Assembly (NCBI GenBank): GCA_017549815.1
Contig: JAFYNH010000021.1
Span: forward strand, 1 to 64,000
Direction: 5' to 3'
DNA length: 64,000 bases
Source of the DNA: Selenomonadaceae bacterium
Lineage (GTDB): Bacteria > Bacillota > Negativicutes > Selenomonadales > Selenomonadaceae
Part shown: in pieces, positions 10,262-19,968 of the stretch
Numbering within the stretch: position 1 is the stretch's first letter
How the letters are laid out: each line of letters opens with the position of its first letter
Made by a program: the position numbers and the translations under genes
The notes under the pieces: generated by a model
Told to the model about the DNA's origin: nothing
Databases searched by the model: none
The model's input: the letters and a program-made list of their open reading frames with translations, nothing else

Positions 10262-10420
10262 TTTATCGGGAAAACGGTTGTAGCTTCGGTTAAAGGCACC
10301 CGATTAGTCGTAAGACTTCAATGCTGTAACTGGAAATGTCGGTTGCAGGGCTGTAGTCAACCAGCCGTACGCGGCGAACGTAAGTTTAGTTGCAAGCTCG
10401 CTATGCGAAGCAGTTGACGC
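10262..10420 (+). other. Structured intergenic element, possible IS200/IS605 right-end (omega-RNA-like) remnant
   Basis: A 160-base stretch downstream of rsmG holds two hairpins: GGTTG/CAACC (10341-10362) and GCTCGC/GCGAAGC (10396-10411), the latter followed by AGTTGAC. A terminal hairpin plus a short fixed sequence is how many tnpB-type elements end. No tnpB is adjacent, so if this reading is right it is an orphan end. It matches no riboswitch I know. Resemblance is by eye only. Confidence 0.3.
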
Positions 10421-11127
10421 TAATTCCCCATTCCCAACTTTATTTTCCTAATCAAGCTTTCACGACGCGGATATTTTTCGGGCGTCGACTTTTTTTTATC
10501 GACGTAAATCACGGCTCGCGAATCGTCAAGGGTTGGCAATTTCATTTCGCGAATCAAAATTTCTCCGCCGCCTAAAATTTTAATCGCGGTTTGTGCCTCG
10601 TCAAGTTCTTCACGGAAATTTTTAGCTTTCCACGCAACGAATTTCCCGCCGACTTTTACGAACGGCAAGCAATATTCCGCCAAAATATTTAATCGGGCGA
10701 CGGCTCGCGAAGTCACAACGTCAAATTTCTCTCTGAAATTTTTTTGCTTGGCAAGTTCCTCTGCGCGTCCGTGAAATATTTCTACGTCGGCAAGCTCCAA
10801 TTCCGCAACGACTTTCTTTAAAAATTCCGTGCGCTTATTCAGCGAATCTATCAAGCAAAGTTTCAAATGCGGCTTGAAAATTTTCAGCGGAATTGCGGGA
10901 AAACCTGCGCCCGTTCCTATATCTGCCAAAGTTTCGACGCCTTGAAATATTTTTTCGTCCCACGCGCTCAGCGAATCGATTATGTGTTTGATTGCGAACT
11001 CGTGCGGCTCGGTTATCGCCGTCAAATTCATTACGCGATTTTGTTCAATCACTAGTTCATAAAATTTTTCGCAAAGGCTTATCTGCGCGGCGTCGAGTCC
11101 GAATTTTGCCAATTCGTCGCGAAACAT
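10420..11127 (-). CDS. rsmG: 16S rRNA (guanine-527-N7)-methyltransferase
   Basis: Methylates N7 of G527 in 16S rRNA with S-adenosylmethionine. The 235-residue protein has the RsmG signature: NLTAITEPHEFAIKHIIDSL at the N-terminus, the SAM-binding LADIGTGAGFPAIPLKI near residue 68, LIDSLNKRTEFL and VVTSRAVARL. It starts at ATG after AAAGGAGG. It follows mnmG on the same strand, the common gidA-gidB order, but about 250 bases of structured intergenic DNA separate them. Its final codons (KLGMGN) lie in a short heptamer-like stretch. Confidence 0.95.
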   Translation of the reverse strand: MFRDELAKFGLDAAQISLCEKFYELVIEQNRVMNLTAITEPHEFAIKHIIDSLSAWDEKIFQGVETLADIGTGAGFPAIPLKIFKPHLKLCLIDSLNKRTEFLKKVVAELELADVEIFHGRAEELAKQKNFREKFDVVTSRAVARLNILAEYCLPFVKVGGKFVAWKAKNFREELDEAQTAIKILGGGEILIREMKLPTLDDSRAVIYVDKKKSTPEKYPRRESLIRKIKLGMGN

Positions 11128-11378: not shown

Positions 11379-13250
11379 TTATCTTAACTGTGTAAGAGTT
11401 TCAAGCCATACAAGCAAAACGGAAATATCGGCGGGCGATACTCCAGAAATGCGCGACGCTTGCCCGATTGAACGCGGTCTAATTGCTGAAAGTTTTTCGC
11501 GAGCCTCGACGCGCAGATTTTTCATGGCGTTATAATCCACGCCGTCAGGAATAATTTTATTTTCAAGGCGGTCAAGTTTCTCGGCAAGTTCCGCCTGTTT
11601 TTTTATATAGCCTTCATAGAAAAAAGAAATTTCAACCTGCGCGGCGGCGTCCTTAGAAATTTCGGGCAAATCGAACGCGGCACGAAGTTTTTCATAAGTG
11701 ACATTCGGGCGGCGTAAAAGTTCGGCAAGCGGCATAGCGTTATGAACTTCGCCAACGTCAAGGCTCGAAAGTTTTTGATTAACTTCGGTGCTCGGTGTCA
11801 ACTTAATCTCGTTAAGGCGTTGAGTTGCCGATAAAATTTCTGCGCGTTTAGTCTCGAAAATTTCCCGACGTCCGGGTGAGGCAAGTCCTATTCTGATAGC
11901 GTGTGGCGTCAAGCGCAAGTCCGCGTTGTCCTGCCGTAAAAGCAAACGATATTCTGCGCGGGAAGTCATCATGCGATAAGGTTCGTTGGTGCCCTTAGTT
12001 ACCAAATCATCAATCAAAACGCCGATATAAGCCTCCGAACGTTTTAAAATCAGCGGCTCAGATTTTTTGACGAAAGCCGCCGCATTTATCCCAGCGATTA
12101 ATCCTTGCGCCGCCGCCTCTTCATAGCCGCTTGTGCCGTTCGATTGTCCTGCCGAGAAAAAGCCCGCGATATTTTTAAATTCCAAAGTCGGCTTGAGTTG
12201 CAACGGGTCTATGCAGTCGTATTCAATCGCGTAGCCCGCCCGCATAATCTTTGCCCGCTCCAAGCCCGGTATCGTGTGCAGGAACTCAATCTGAACGTCC
12301 ATTGGCATTGAAGTTGACATGCCCTGAACGTAATATTCTTGCGTGTTCAAACCTTCTGGCTCAAGGAAAAGTTGGTGCCGCTCCTTATCGGGGAAACGAA
12401 TAATCTTCGACTCAATCGACGGACAATAGCGCGGTCCGATACCTTCAATGATTCCGTTCGCCATAGGTGCGCGGTGAAGATTTTTTCTTAAAATTTCGTG
12501 CGTCCGTTCGTTGGTGTAAGTCAAATAACAGTTCACGCGATTTTTAACGGGCGTCTTCGTCATGAACGAAAAATTTTGCGGAGGTTCGTCGCCGCGTTGA
12601 AGTTCCATTTTGTCGAAATCCAAAGTTCTTGCATCGACCCGCGCAGGCGTTCCCGTCTTAAAGCGCATAAGTTTGACACCGAGATTTTTAAGCGAATCGG
12701 AAAGTTTAATCGCGGCTCGCTGACCGTTCGGTCCGCCGTCAAAAATACTTTCGCCGATAATAATTCGCCCGCTTAAATAAGTTCCGCTCGCCAAAATTAC
12801 CGCGTCCGTCAGAAAAGTTTCGCCCGTCTCCGCGCAGACTCCGACAACTTTATTATCCTCAACTAAAATATCTTCAATCAGCAACTGTTTAAGGTCAAGC
12901 CCGTCAACGTTCTCGCAAAAATTTTTCATGACGGCTTGATAAATTTTTTTATCGGCTTGCGCCCGCAACGCTTGAACTGCAAAACCTTTGCCCGTGTTGA
13001 GCGTCCTGAATTGAATACAAGTTTCGTCGGCGGCAATGCCCATTTGCCCTCCGAGCGCGTCAATTTCCCTGACGAGATGACCTTTCGCAGGACCTCCGAT
13101 TGACGGGTTGCAAGGCATCATCGCCAAATTTTCCAATGATAAAGTCGTCAGCAACGTTTTGCAACCCAGCCGCGCAGACGCCAAAGCCGCCTCTATGCCC
13201 GCGTGTCCCGCGCCAATTATTATCACGTCGTACTTGTCAGCTGTAAACAA
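11379..13250 (-). CDS. mnmG: tRNA uridine-5-carboxymethylaminomethyl modification enzyme
   Basis: With MnmE it builds the cmnm5 group on U34 of several tRNAs, using FAD, NADH, glycine and methylene-THF. The 623-residue length is normal. It has the FAD-binding DVIIIGAGHAGIEAALASARLG at the N-terminus, the MPCNPSIGGPAKGHLVREIDALGG block, TGTYLSG, and the C-terminal helical region with SRAEYRLLLRQDNADLRL and AIRPRSIGQASRISGVSPADISVLL. The start is TTG with GAGGAGGA upstream. That ribosome site overlaps the end of the restriction gene, so the modification gene is now read as part of the R-M transcript. mnmE is not in the window. Confidence 0.97.
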   Translation of the reverse strand: MFTADKYDVIIIGAGHAGIEAALASARLGCKTLLTTLSLENLAMMPCNPSIGGPAKGHLVREIDALGGQMGIAADETCIQFRTLNTGKGFAVQALRAQADKKIYQAVMKNFCENVDGLDLKQLLIEDILVEDNKVVGVCAETGETFLTDAVILASGTYLSGRIIIGESIFDGGPNGQRAAIKLSDSLKNLGVKLMRFKTGTPARVDARTLDFDKMELQRGDEPPQNFSFMTKTPVKNRVNCYLTYTNERTHEILRKNLHRAPMANGIIEGIGPRYCPSIESKIIRFPDKERHQLFLEPEGLNTQEYYVQGMSTSMPMDVQIEFLHTIPGLERAKIMRAGYAIEYDCIDPLQLKPTLEFKNIAGFFSAGQSNGTSGYEEAAAQGLIAGINAAAFVKKSEPLILKRSEAYIGVLIDDLVTKGTNEPYRMMTSRAEYRLLLRQDNADLRLTPHAIRIGLASPGRREIFETKRAEILSATQRLNEIKLTPSTEVNQKLSSLDVGEVHNAMPLAELLRRPNVTYEKLRAAFDLPEISKDAAAQVEISFFYEGYIKKQAELAEKLDRLENKIIPDGVDYNAMKNLRVEAREKLSAIRPRSIGQASRISGVSPADISVLLVWLETLTQLR

Positions 13251-13262
13251 ATTTCTTCCTCC

Positions 13263-14225
13263 TCAGACTGTAAAAATATTTATACAAGATTTTTTACTTA
13301 AAGTTGAAATAAGTACATGACGCGGCGGACATACCGACGCCAAAATTATATCTTGAAAACAAGGACGAATTTCTTCGGAAGAATGTATCGCTCCTGCATA
13401 TAACGCCGAATTTTTCAGTAATACTGTCTCATTTGAAATAGGATTTTTATAATCATCGTATGTAAACGATAAAATATTAACTTCGTTCATTTGTTTAGAT
13501 ATAAAATTGTTTAAATTCAAAGCGGTAGTTGACGAAATGTAATCGGCAAGCAAATCCTGTATAAGCCAAACAGCTTTACCACCCCATGTCATGGCAACTT
13601 GAGACTTAACAAGAAGTTGACTCGTCATTCTTGCCCAAACTTGTCGATAATTTATTCCCGGAGCCATGTGATTTTTTCCAAGAATACAATCTTCAAAGGC
13701 TTGTGGAATTGTACTTCGTATTTTTTTATTACCTCCTGATGTGCTTGAAGTCATAATTTCAACAATTACGGGGGAGCCTACAGGAAGATTTTCGACAAGC
13801 GGCATTAAAATATAATCAAAAGTATAGTCAAAAATTCTAGAATTATTGGCTTTATATTTTATCTTTACTTCTGACCAAACACCAATCTGAGTTCTCTTTG
13901 GAAAATTTAAATTACTCATTAGAACTTTCTGAATTTCATTTTTTGTAACTTGTTGCGGGTAAAATAACCTGCGCGGACAAATTATCCAAGGCGGCGTGTC
14001 GTCTCGAAGTTGAATCGAACATATCCCCGAAGGAACTTTTTCCAACTCTGAGAAAAATTTTTGAAGTTCGGAATGAGTCGATAAATTTATTTCTGATTGA
14101 AAACGATTACCTCCACCGTCACACTTTGCCAACATAAAAGGACAAAAAGCCATGCGACGTGATTCGCAAACTTCAAAGCTGTTATTGATTATCGGGTATC
14201 CGAAAAGTTCATAAATTTTGGGCAT
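13263..14225 (-). CDS. NotI-like type II restriction endonuclease
   Basis: 320 residues, directly after and overlapping (37 bases) a C5 cytosine methyltransferase, which marks it as the restriction partner. The N-terminal part has a Cys pattern (C at residue 19, then CPF-x4-C-x-GGG near 28-37, and further Cys at GICS and IICP) that recalls the iron-binding fold of the NotI family. The central IVEIMTSSTSGGNK could carry a PD-(D/E)XK-type site. Family assignment is moderate and the recognition site is unknown. The start is firm: ATG after AAGGAGGT. The gene is more AT-rich to the eye than its housekeeping neighbours, consistent with transfer. Confidence 0.62.
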   Translation of the reverse strand: MPKIYELFGYPIINNSFEVCESRRMAFCPFMLAKCDGGGNRFQSEINLSTHSELQKFFSELEKVPSGICSIQLRDDTPPWIICPRRLFYPQQVTKNEIQKVLMSNLNFPKRTQIGVWSEVKIKYKANNSRIFDYTFDYILMPLVENLPVGSPVIVEIMTSSTSGGNKKIRSTIPQAFEDCILGKNHMAPGINYRQVWARMTSQLLVKSQVAMTWGGKAVWLIQDLLADYISSTTALNLNNFISKQMNEVNILSFTYDDYKNPISNETVLLKNSALYAGAIHSSEEIRPCFQDIILASVCPPRHVLISTLSKKSCINIFTV

Positions 14226-15289
14226 AAAAGAACCTCCTTGATTTTTTCGGCTACGATTTTTGCCAAAGGTGGAGGAACAGAGTTACTTATTTGACGATAT
14301 TGATCCAAAGATTTTACTTTGCCAGAACGCCCGCGAATTGGACCGCACAGAACATAATCGTCTGGATAACCGTGAATCCTCATGTATTCACGAGGCGTCA
14401 AGTAACGATCTTCTGTGGGATGAAAAAATATTTCGCCGCCGCGCAGAGTATTTGAAGGCTTATTTCTGTCGAGCCTTAAAAATTTTGTTGTATCTTTTTT
14501 AGTCAAGCCGCAAATTTGTTCTTTTGGAAGATGAACTTGCGAAGATAAATATTTTCCTTCCGAGACGCCGTGTATACGTTGACGATCTCTTAAAGGAGTA
14601 ATATCAATGTGACTATCTTGAGGAATCTCAATGGTTTCAGATTTTTTAAGAGGCGGAGGTAAATCACTAATAACTTCTCCAACTGTTTTACAAGGAAGAA
14701 AAAATAAATTTCCATGTTCGCTATGAGTGGGAGAAGGAAAATAAAATTTATCACTTGTCATGGCAACCAAGAAAATTCTTTCACGCTTTTGCGGAATCCC
14801 GTATTCAATCGCCGACAATATCTGCCATTTTACTATATATCCCAAGTTTTCAAGTTGTCTTACGAATGTTTTAAAAACGCCGCCTGAGTTACCAACTAAA
14901 TCTTTGGCTGTCAAAAAACCTTTGACTTGTTCAATCATAACTGCTTGCGGTTTAAAAGCACGAACAAATCTTATAAACTCAAAAAGTAATTCACTGCGTT
15001 CATCTTCAAGCGAGAGTTTTTTTCCAGCTAAAGAAAAAGCTTGACATGGAGAACCGCCGAAAATCAAATTTATTTTTCCGACAGCTAAATTTCTCGGATT
15101 AAGTTGCCTGATGTCCTCTTGAAAAATTTTTGTATCTCTATCTAAGCGTAAAATATTATTTCTAAGAGTCTCACAACAGTATTTATCAACTTCAACACAA
15201 GCTGTTATCTCAAAGCCTGCTTGCAAGACGCCGAGATCCATTCCGCCTGCTCCTGAAAATAAAGACAGAGCTTTTAAAATTTCTATCAT
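14189..15289 (-). CDS. DNA (cytosine-5)-methyltransferase
   Basis: A 366-residue C5 methyltransferase that protects host DNA from the downstream nuclease. Motif I is ALSLFSGAGGMDLG, motif IV is FGGSPCQAFS (SPCQ instead of the usual PPCQ, catalytic Cys kept), motif VI reads IEQV instead of ENV (Glu kept), motif VIII is PQKRERIF and motif X is ISNSVPPPLA. The target-recognition domain lies between about 190 and 310. The annotated ATG abuts the TAGGAG site, so the exact start is uncertain by a few codons. It is divergent from flhF. Confidence 0.93.
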   Translation of the reverse strand: MIEILKALSLFSGAGGMDLGVLQAGFEITACVEVDKYCCETLRNNILRLDRDTKIFQEDIRQLNPRNLAVGKINLIFGGSPCQAFSLAGKKLSLEDERSELLFEFIRFVRAFKPQAVMIEQVKGFLTAKDLVGNSGGVFKTFVRQLENLGYIVKWQILSAIEYGIPQKRERIFLVAMTSDKFYFPSPTHSEHGNLFFLPCKTVGEVISDLPPPLKKSETIEIPQDSHIDITPLRDRQRIHGVSEGKYLSSQVHLPKEQICGLTKKDTTKFLRLDRNKPSNTLRGGEIFFHPTEDRYLTPREYMRIHGYPDDYVLCGPIRGRSGKVKSLDQYRQISNSVPPPLAKIVAEKIKEVLLCPKFMNFSDTR

Positions 15290-15343
15290 CTCCTACCAAA
15301 AAATTTTTTTGAGTTTAAACCGCCCAAAAAAAACCGTCAAGCT

Positions 15344-15412: not shown

Positions 15413-17122
15413 TTGCAAATAAAAGTATTCAAAGCGGGCAATATGAAGGACGCGATGGCGGCAATGAAAGCTGAGTTGGGTGATGACGCCGTCATATTGC
15501 ACAGCAAAAAATATAAGGAAGGCGGGCTTTTGGGAATCGGCAGTCGCGAAGTCGTCGAAATAACTGCCGCCGTCGAAGAAAGCTCCATGCCTAAAAAAAT
15601 CGAAACCCCACGCCTTAAACACCCAACTGTCGCTACAAGTTCCGTTATAAATCGCTATAAAACAGACGGAACCGCGCAGGGCGTCGCAGGCGCAGAACGT
15701 TCAGCCGAAAATATTTCTTCGGATAAAAAGGAAGAAACGTCTCACTCTTTGCAGACCGACGACCTTAGCGAAAAAGTTTCCGAACAAAAAAAATCAGCCG
15801 CTCCACAGAAAAATTTTGAAGACATTCTGCAGGAAGTAAAACAAGATTCTCCTTTGGCACCGGTCGAAGAAAAATCCGCGTCTGTTGAGAAAGCTCCTGC
15901 GCCTGAAGAAAAATCTCAACCCGTCGAAAAAACTCCTGCGCCTGAAGAAAAATCTCAACCCGTCGAAAAAGTTTCCGAGCCTGAAGAAAAAATTCAGTCC
16001 GTAGAAAAACCTGCGCCCGAAGATAAACCAGTCGAGAAATCCGCGCCCGAAGATAAATCACAACAACAAGTCACGACTTTTACTCAAGAACAAATGGCGC
16101 AAACTCAAGCAATGATTATGGCGCAGTTCAATCAAATGCAGATGATGCAACAGGCAGCAATCGCGCAGGCACAGGCTCAAGCCGCTGAACAACTTCGACT
16201 TCAACAGGCTCAACAACAAGCTACAATCGCGCAGACTCAACCCGTAATCCAGAACGATGCAAAACTCAAAAAGCTCGAAGAAGAAATCGCGCATATGAAA
16301 GCTTTACTGACAGAAATTTTGGGGCGCGAATCAAATAAGGGCGGCGTCTCACTTCACGAGGCTTTAAAAATGCAAGAGGTCGACGAAGATATTTTAAAGG
16401 AAATGGCGGCGCAAGCTAACGCGGGCGAAACTTTAGCCGATATGCACACGCCAGCCGCAAAGGCAACGTTACTGAATTACCTAAATGAACACGTGAAATT
16501 TTCCGACGGTGTTAAACTCAATCGGCACGGCGTTAGAATAGTCGCTCTGCTCGGCACAACGGGCGTCGGCAAAACTACAACCCTAGCTAAAATCGCCGCG
16601 AAGTTTGTTCTGGAGCAAAGATCGAGCGTTGCGCTAATCACGGCGGACACTTACAGGATTTCAGCCGTCGAACAACTTAAAACTTATTCCGATATTTTGG
16701 AGTTGCCGCTTGAAATTGTCTATAACCCGCCCGAATTAGCGTCGGCTATCGAACGTCACCGCAATAAAGAATTAATTCTAATCGACACGGCGGGGCGCAG
16801 TCAGCACAACGAATATCAAATGCGCGAGCTTGAAGAATTCCTGCGCGTTAATCCGCGTATAGAAAAACATTTGGTCATAAGCGCGACGACTAAATACACC
16901 GACGCCAAGCAGATTATGAATAAATTTGCGCAAGTCAACCCCGACAGGATTATTTTCACAAAGATAGACGAAACTGGCAGTGTCGGCATGATTGTAAATC
17001 TTTTGAACGATAACAGATATTCGTTGTCCTACATAACGACCGGGCAGAGCGTCCCCGACGATATTGAGCGCGCAAATTCCGAAGTGCTCACAAATCTTTT
17101 ACTCCAAAAAGTCGAAGAGTAA
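15413..17122 (+). CDS. flhF: Flagellar biosynthesis GTPase FlhF
   Basis: An SRP-type GTPase that helps place and build flagella at the membrane. The 569-residue protein starts MQIKVFKAGNMKDAMAAMKAELGDDAVIL, the FlhF N-terminal signature. Residues 65-250 are a long linker with 13-residue PAPEEKSQPVEK repeats and a Gln/Ala/Met-rich stretch. The NG domain follows: GTTGVGKTTTLAKIA (G1), ITADTYRISAVEQL, LIDTAGRSQHN (G3), FTKIDETGSVGMI (G4). The start is TTG. The linker is longer than in Bacillus FlhF. flhG follows 16 bases later. Confidence 0.95.
   Translation: MQIKVFKAGNMKDAMAAMKAELGDDAVILHSKKYKEGGLLGIGSREVVEITAAVEESSMPKKIETPRLKHPTVATSSVINRYKTDGTAQGVAGAERSAENISSDKKEETSHSLQTDDLSEKVSEQKKSAAPQKNFEDILQEVKQDSPLAPVEEKSASVEKAPAPEEKSQPVEKTPAPEEKSQPVEKVSEPEEKIQSVEKPAPEDKPVEKSAPEDKSQQQVTTFTQEQMAQTQAMIMAQFNQMQMMQQAAIAQAQAQAAEQLRLQQAQQQATIAQTQPVIQNDAKLKKLEEEIAHMKALLTEILGRESNKGGVSLHEALKMQEVDEDILKEMAAQANAGETLADMHTPAAKATLLNYLNEHVKFSDGVKLNRHGVRIVALLGTTGVGKTTTLAKIAAKFVLEQRSSVALITADTYRISAVEQLKTYSDILELPLEIVYNPPELASAIERHRNKELILIDTAGRSQHNEYQMRELEEFLRVNPRIEKHLVISATTKYTDAKQIMNKFAQVNPDRIIFTKIDETGSVGMIVNLLNDNRYSLSYITTGQSVPDDIERANSEVLTNLLLQKVEE
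15896..16060 (+). repeat. 39-base coding repeat in the flhF linker
   Basis: Two near-identical 39-base units (PAPEEKSQPVEK plus one residue) are followed by shortened, diverged copies (SEPEEKIQSVEK, APEDKPVEKS, APEDKS). The unit is a multiple of three, so copy-number change would alter linker length but not the frame. Confidence 0.75.
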
Positions 17123-18693: not shown

Positions 18694-19857
18694 CTAACGA
18701 ACGGGTACATAATTTGCCAGATTTATCGCTGCCTGTAAGTCGCGGTCTATTTCATTTCCGCAATTTTCACAGTGGTAAATTCGCTCCGATAAACGCAAAT
18801 TTTTCTTCACGTGTCCGCAAGCTATGCATTTCTTTGAACTCGGATAATATCTGTCGGCGATGATAACGGTTATTCCAGACCACTGAGCTTTATACTCTAT
18901 CTGCCGCCGAAATTCATAAAATCCTTGTTCCTGCACTGCTTTTGCTAAATGACGATTCTTCATCATGCCCTTCACGTTCAAATCTTCAAGTACTATCAAA
19001 CTTGGTTTTCGTCCGATAAGTCCACTTGTGATTTGGTGCCGATAATTCTGCCTTATATTCGCCAATCGGTGATGTATACCTAAAAGTTTTTTCTCACTCT
19101 TTATAATGTTGCGCGTTTTCTTGTAACTTTCTCCTTTCTTATTATTCATCTCGTATTTGCGCGAGATAGAGCGTTGCAACCGACGCTGTTTCTTTTTTAG
19201 TCGTTTAATCGTCTTCGTCTTGTTAATGTTCGGATAAGTCGTGCCGTCTGAACACGACGCCAAACTTTTTATACCTAAGTCAATGCCGACGACTTCGCCG
19301 CTAAGTTCCGACTTTTCAGCCTCGAATTCAACGGCAACACTTAACCACCAATTTAAACCGTCGAATGTAATTCGTGGTTGTTGATATTTTACACCAATAG
19401 GAATCCGCCCATGCTCGGCAAGTCTGAACCAATTCAACTTTTGCTTATTTCGTTTCTTACTGGTTGCTATCGCCTCAAGCTTAACGTGTGTCGCCGTAAT
19501 TCGGATTTTGTCCGTGTCCTGATAAAAGCTGAAGTCGCCGCGATGTTTGCTCTTGAATCTCGGTCGCCCTGACAATCCTTTGAAAAAATTGGTGTAAGCG
19601 TCAACGCAATCTTTTATCGCTTGCTTTGGCACGTTATTTGAAATCGTCTTGAGCCACTGATACTCGACGGAGTTCCTAAGTATCGTAAATTCTTTTCGTA
19701 GATCGTTGTTGCTGATGAAGTTTTCGCCAGCGTCGTAAGCGTCGATTTCCTTTCGTAATGTCCAGTTGTAAGCAAAGCGAGCTGTCCCCGCGAATTGAAA
19801 TAATCGCGTTCTTTGGCGTTTATTCGGTACGAGCATGACTTTAAACGATTTCAGCAT
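18694..19857 (-). CDS. tnpB: IS200/IS605-family TnpB (RNA-guided nuclease), solo copy
   Basis: A 387-residue TnpB. The N-terminal helix-turn-helix region (SFKVMLVPNKRQRTRLFQFAGTARFAYNW) leads to a RuvC nuclease core with all acidic residues: D193 (GIDLGIKS), E291 (VLEDLNVKGM) and D371 (EIDRDLQAA). A zinc finger C344-x2-C347 ... C363-x2-C366 lies within the core. TnpB uses an omega-RNA from the element's right end to cut target DNA. There is no tnpA beside it, so it cannot move on its own. The ATG at 19857 fits the AAAGGTGA site. The C-terminal tail is lost by frameshift. It sits between meaB and yvyF, on their strand. Confidence 0.92.
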   Translation of the reverse strand: MLKSFKVMLVPNKRQRTRLFQFAGTARFAYNWTLRKEIDAYDAGENFISNNDLRKEFTILRNSVEYQWLKTISNNVPKQAIKDCVDAYTNFFKGLSGRPRFKSKHRGDFSFYQDTDKIRITATHVKLEAIATSKKRNKQKLNWFRLAEHGRIPIGVKYQQPRITFDGLNWWLSVAVEFEAEKSELSGEVVGIDLGIKSLASCSDGTTYPNINKTKTIKRLKKKQRRLQRSISRKYEMNNKKGESYKKTRNIIKSEKKLLGIHHRLANIRQNYRHQITSGLIGRKPSLIVLEDLNVKGMMKNRHLAKAVQEQGFYEFRRQIEYKAQWSGITVIIADRYYPSSKKCIACGHVKKNLRLSERIYHCENCGNEIDRDLQAAINLANYVPVR

Positions 19858-19968
19858 ATTGTTCACCTTTGATAGAACTTTCCTTTAGCTGTTAGTAAGC
19901 CTCCATAAATTTTTAAGGGTAACTTTCCAAGTAGAATTTCTGCAGACATAGAAAATTTTCCTGCAAAG

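Follow-up and report, generated by a model that had tools for sequence, protein, structure and literature searches.

The locus

The DNA considered here (the window) is a stretch of 64,000 nucleotides from a Selenomonadaceae bacterium (assembly GCA_017549815.1, contig JAFYNH010000021.1, positions 1 to 64,000 of the forward strand). It carries a C5-cytosine DNA methyltransferase (MTase) and a restriction endonuclease (REase) directly before mnmG, the gene of a tRNA-modification enzyme. The order of transcription, on the minus strand, is MTase -> REase -> mnmG -> rsmG (Table 1). Genomes are labelled G and loci L, and G000 is the genome of the window. An earlier note, made from the sequence alone, described a NotI-like restriction-modification (RM) pair inserted in front of mnmG. 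It read the junctions correctly. The two RM genes overlap by 37 bases (14189-14225), 12 bases separate the end of the REase from the TTG start of mnmG, and the Shine-Dalgarno site of mnmG, GAGGAGGA, overlaps the TGA stop of the REase.

PCQ and ENV are the signature motifs of C5 DNA methyltransferases. The window MTase, which has a PF00145 domain, keeps PCQ, and its ENV reads EQV. The earlier note called both SPCQ (motif IV) and EQV (motif VI) variants. Both are present as described, but only the first is unusual. Among 69 related MTases readable at both motifs, from 77 loci, SPCQ is found in 3 and PPCQ in 66, while EQV is the usual form (63/69).

The nuclease is harder to place. It has no Pfam match at 0.001 and no NCBIfam match at 0.01. 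It does match PADLOC REase_II at 2.9e-6, and in its own genome the PADLOC model PDLC03464 matches this protein only. A scan of the genome contigs with the single protein as query found no relative. A profile made from three genus members found 77 REase loci in named genomes, which span many phyla and include archaea. A related C5 MTase lies on the REase strand in 72 of these loci and nearly always overlaps or abuts the REase; for a small number of loci (L074, L107) this count combines several MTase matches, and in L135 the gap is 231 bases long. Of the five remaining loci, three begin at a contig end.

We aligned the window REase with 64 of the 77 relatives, omitting 13 loci with short or broken frames; analysis set A5 retained 58 of these 65 rows. 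Cys28, Cys35 and Cys83 are present in all 65 sequences and Cys69 in 64. E119, D133, D137 and E156 are invariant, and Lys121 is kept in 64. The AlphaFold2 (AF2) model of the window REase has a predicted local distance difference test (pLDDT) score of 92.5. VIA-align matches it to NotI with Z 19.1 (3c25) and 18.5 (3bvq) over 241-244 residues at a root-mean-square deviation of 3.0-3.1, and the next fold scores Z 5.5. Foldseek alone gave no match to the PDB at E 0.001 or better, and NotI emerged only with VIA. The match by sequence is weak: phmmer finds none between the REase and NotI up to E 1, and the REase profile gives E 0.97 near the third and fourth conserved cysteines, where it aligns G-V-C and a C-P-x-R segment. 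The fold alignment covers 244 residues (aligned range 1-294) at 16% identity. NotI itself has a four-Cys metal site and cuts the 8-bp sequence GCGGCCGC. The likeness to NotI that the earlier note saw is a strong match in fold and a weak one in sequence. On the model the window nuclease has the NotI fold. Its sequence and modelled structure make the pair a predicted type II RM system, in which a DNA methyltransferase is paired with an endonuclease.

Table 1. Features of the locus in window coordinates
Feature	Position	Strand	Basis
C5-cytosine DNA methyltransferase, 366 residues, cassette gene 1	14189..15289	-	PF00145 1.7e-65; PADLOC MTase_II 5.3e-86
NotI-fold restriction endonuclease, 320 residues, cassette gene 2	13263..14225	-	AF2 pLDDT 92.5; NotI Z 19.1; 65-sequence family
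mnmG (gidA), tRNA-modification enzyme, start TTG at 13250	11379..13250	-	PF01134 1.8e-163
Left seam: leader Shine-Dalgarno GGTAGGAG, now immediately 5' of MTase ATG	15290..15297	-	Leader comparison
Right seam: second Shine-Dalgarno GAGGAGGA at REase stop, for mnmG	13251..13264	-	Sequence
Putatively captured mnmG promoter-like site TTGACG-N17-TAAACT	15312..15340	-	Homologous to G050 mnmG leader
REase codons 143-144, site of ~38 extra residues in relatives	13794..13799	-	65-sequence alignment
rsmG, next after mnmG	10420..11127	-	PF02527 5.1e-51
flhF, divergent neighbour	15413..17122	+	SRP54 GTPase domain 5.8e-40; homologue directly adjoins mnmG in G050

The pair lies between the mnmG leader and the mnmG start

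G050 is a near relative with an empty site, where 128 bp separate mnmG from flhF. Its leader matches the DNA 5' of the window MTase from positions -296 to -8. The last 146 columns of this match are at 88%, and the match ends 8 bases before the mnmG start. It includes the promoter-like site TTGACG-N17-TAAACT. The MTase ATG comes directly after the leader Shine-Dalgarno, and a second Shine-Dalgarno for mnmG is found at the nuclease stop. By this homology of filled to empty site, the cassette sits downstream of the putative mnmG promoter and upstream of the mnmG start codon. Other filled and empty pairs behave in the same way: the leader match ends 6 bases before the mnmG start in G114/G050, 1 in G070/G109, 5 in G063/G109 and 11 in G110/G109. 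A second comparison gives longer matching ranges for all of these pairs, G000/G050 included, except G110/G109. The GC content at third codon positions (GC3) is 0.27 for both the MTase and the REase, versus 0.505 for mnmG.

We argue that a type II RM cassette was probably acquired between the mnmG leader, with its promoter and Shine-Dalgarno, and the mnmG start codon. The arrangement is not common to all relatives. The REase is present in 3/189 genomes of the family, its own included, and the G050 site is empty, which agrees with the insertion proposed in the earlier note. That the pair was spliced into a housekeeping transcript is likewise supported at the level of DNA by what appears to be a captured leader. 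mnmG is probably the third gene of a restriction operon, judging from the sequence. Two promoter-like sites lie between the MTase start and mnmG on this strand, both inside the MTase (14861-14832 and 14766-14738), and a consensus scan of the nearly 1.5 kb before mnmG gave no promoter-like site.

In the scenario we propose, a C5 MTase and a NotI-fold nuclease with four conserved cysteines would have been acquired horizontally as one cassette, at the junction of the mnmG leader with the start codon. One promoter would then drive the MTase, the REase and mnmG. The MTase would methylate its target and the nuclease would cut unmethylated invading DNA. This would most likely be a conventional type II system running from the mnmG promoter, with mnmG as the distal gene.

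Several points count against this reading. The promoter is a consensus match only, and the scan gave 11 sites where 6.4 are expected. The G110 leader match is weaker (78% over 74 columns), and ~110 further bases lie before its MTase. Where the DNA is AT-rich, a local alignment can also run a few bases past its true end.

The slot in related species

Upstream DNA was read for 57 genus genomes besides the window, in some cases over very short stretches. The mnmG tree holds 55 of the 66 genus genomes, and 32 of its 55 rows form one clade (support 100/98). RM genes lie within 2.4 kb before mnmG in 8 of these 32 species, and they are of five unrelated kinds. The C5/NotI-like pair is found in G000, G070 and G110. 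A D12 methyltransferase with a DUF6996/6997/7226 nuclease is found in G063 and, by homology, in G108. In G114 an N6/N4 methyltransferase faces a weakly matched nuclease in convergent orientation, G074 has a type IIG enzyme and G112 has DpnI. The nucleases of the window and of G114 are called from weaker matches or from fold, beside well-matched MTases. An exact seam is not demonstrated in three species, because the G108 cassette comes after a cupin-like gene (named by eye) with no leader match found, the G112 contig ends just beyond DpnI, and the type IIG gene of G074 is ~630 bp from mnmG. As for the other species, 9 have a divergent 5'-nucleotidase without an insert, 14 carry genes that are of other kinds or unassigned, and in G050 flhF adjoins an empty site. 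Unrelated defence units stand before mnmG in relatives, which gives the site the look of a parking place for interchangeable defences.

The usual upstream neighbour, mnmE, is not adjacent to mnmG in the window, as the earlier note observed. The one copy found is on another contig (G000:C14:21344-21688). It is worth considering whether the insertion split the two genes. It did not, because the empty-site relative G050 already has mnmE elsewhere, and the linkage is missing from the rest of the clade as well: over the stretches read, none of the 32 species shows mnmE upstream of mnmG. The junction is kept outside the clade. mnmE is directly upstream in 17/20 regions of other genera. Among the 23 tree rows outside the clade it is directly upstream (within 182 bp) in 14 and 1.1-5 kb upstream in 4; the rest have none or short stretches.

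Regions of 3.1 kb before recA and mnmE served as controls, from 20 of the 32 species per gene, some of them ended by a contig end. Open reading frames (ORFs) were picked in the same way for controls and mnmG regions; for G055 and G109 antisense frames were taken instead of the 5'-nucleotidase, which leaves the RM count unaffected. At PADLOC E 1e-10 the 40 control regions (108 ORFs) gave no RM protein, only five HTH_VI matches and one homing-endonuclease match. The 31 mnmG regions (78 ORFs) have methyltransferases and nucleases among 129 matching PADLOC families; this view covers 25 of the 129, and the RM count rests on searches of single genes. RM genes are found in 8/32 mnmG regions versus 0/40 controls (Fisher p 0.0009). 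The species are related, so these counts are not independent; by unrelated RM kind the comparison is 5/32 versus 0/40 (p 0.014).

One can imagine instead that the slot is a general hotspot of gene turnover, opened by the separation of mnmE from mnmG, in which RM genes are ordinary passengers. We take this to be a real possibility, if not the better one. The slot is not reserved for RM genes: the 14 species with other or unassigned genes include a helicase, an FkbM methyltransferase and an ABC transporter. However, the regions before recA and mnmE also have variable neighbours and none of the 40 holds an RM gene, although this is a comparison with two control genes. Under the promoter-capture reading, recombination in the two flanks, conserved mnmG on one side and the leader on the other, would exchange the cassettes. 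A stronger version would make the leader a docking slot, in which RM cassettes take the promoter and leave mnmG last. Loss of a cassette together with its promoter would then cost mnmG expression, and this hostage arrangement would stabilise swappable defences. We offer it as a speculation that is rather doubtful at present.

Other slots in the clade deserve a description of their own. In G111 (L142) three consecutive same-strand ORFs of 262, 124 and 165 amino acids precede mnmG. The 165-residue one is next to mnmG and has no Pfam or PADLOC match; the sister of G111 is G074, with the type IIG enzyme. In the sister species G099, G057 and G102 (L149, L145, L147) a ResIII helicase that carries a zinc ribbon stops ~30 bases before mnmG. 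PADLOC matches it to type IV restriction helicases and other defence models, but it may be a repair helicase, and it does not count as an RM gene here.

History of the C5 pair

The genus yielded three REase copies, each of them at this site. It could be argued that the clade ancestor gained the C5 pair in a single event and that the pair was then lost or replaced many times, so that G000, G070 and G110 keep an old insertion. The MTases give this some appeal. Those of G070 and G110 are 77-79% identical to the window MTase, while named relatives outside the genus reach at most 66% in mostly full-length matches (short stretches reach 70%). Synonymous divergence (dS) between the G070 and G110 RM genes is 0.57-0.72, which resembles the mnmG value of 0.68. 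Nevertheless, RM dS between G000 and G070 or G110 is 1.9-2.2 (values near saturation), about twice the mnmG dS of 0.96-1.09, low GC3 is seen in G000 only, and near relatives are empty or have other systems. One group of the mnmG tree (support 99/99) joins G000, G104, G114 and the empty G050. Another (100/100) joins G110 with its C5 pair to G063, which has the D12 pair, and to G109 (empty) and G070 (C5 pair), which are sisters. Sequence divergence thus suggests that the window pair did not simply descend with mnmG, and we consider a single old insertion unlikely. When mapped on the mnmG tree by parsimony, RM presence takes 7 changes and the C5 pair takes 3. These changes may be gains or losses, two more rows were omitted, and species with no recognised RM gene were scored as lacking RM. 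Spread by phages or plasmids is unsupported, since no REase relative was found in plasmids, phages or viral contigs at the sensitivity used.

State of the nuclease

The window REase alone among the 65 aligned lacks ~38 residues between codons 143 and 144. In the 355-residue G070 REase, residues ~150-195 have a fold similar to that of winged-helix proteins, among them a phage excisionase and BldC (Z 5.1-5.2, weak alone), and the residues absent from the window protein belong to this stretch. This places a winged-helix-like module inside the catalytic core of a NotI-fold family, in relatives such as L128:4001-5065.

The case for a conventional system is weakened here on two counts. The window enzyme is without a module common to its 64 relatives and may therefore be altered or inactive. 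An invariant Met stands two residues past E156 (E-x-M) where the usual form is E-x-K, and the catalytic site therefore departs from the textbook form. One might conclude that the nuclease is decaying and that loss of the module left a methylation-only remnant, since the gap is unique (1/65) and the genes are AT-rich. This is improbable: the frame is open, the conserved acidic and Cys residues are kept, the model is confident, REase dN/dS (the ratio of nonsynonymous to synonymous divergence) is ~0.10 between the window and G070 and G110, and NotI is matched about equally by the full-length G070 model (Z 18.2) and by the window model.

Relation to known systems

RM systems inside housekeeping loci are already known. 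NmeDI and other RM content lie between pheS and pheT in Neisseria meningitidis, according to the available parts of the sources (PMC7973814, PMC3082526). There too RM content varies, in that case among strains, at a housekeeping, tRNA-related locus. However, as far as those parts go, that case concerns one species and lies between the two genes of a pair, whereas here the cassettes would separate a gene from its own promoter, and would do so across species. Strains of Streptococcus pneumoniae carry either of two RM systems, DpnI or DpnII, in the portion of the source available (PMC3573125). In the clade studied here, both a DpnI gene and a D12-MTase pair occur before mnmG. The pneumococcal case as described there has two alternatives in one species, versus five unrelated kinds across species in ours, and the pneumococcal flanks were not compared. 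Hotspots that lack mobile elements are proposed to be renewed by recombination at flanking core genes, again from part of the source (PMC5635113). This resembles the turnover mechanism proposed above; the difference is that the present case concerns one slot only, located in a 5' leader and with apparent promoter capture.

The nuclease family differs from NotI itself in that the partner here is a C5 MTase and relatives carry the winged-helix-like insert. Searches of the literature on RM at mnmG/gidA, on Selenomonas/Quinella, on RM generally and on defence hotspots gave no report of this slot among the matches listed, and none for purH-purD; for the NotI metal site no relevant paper was among the matches listed. 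What is new, as far as these matches go, is the place, how precisely the promoter appears to be captured, how many unrelated systems are involved, and the nuclease family.

We argue that this locus is a clear natural example of defence genes that would separate a conserved gene precisely from its promoter, while relatives have the site empty or filled in other ways. The locus lends itself to studying how an RM cassette can start up safely in a new host, and whether cassettes are retained through their linkage to an important gene. A further lead is a widespread family of NotI-fold nucleases that has no matching Pfam model and carries a winged-helix-like insert.

Other observations

The linker of flhF is long and repeat-rich, and its length varies between the window and L141 of G050. 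The G050 flhF is split into two overlapping frames, which is either a frameshift or an assembly error. Elsewhere in the window, at 18694-19866 (-) near flagellar genes, lies a 390-residue TnpB/OrfB-like protein with a CxxC zinc ribbon, named by eye.
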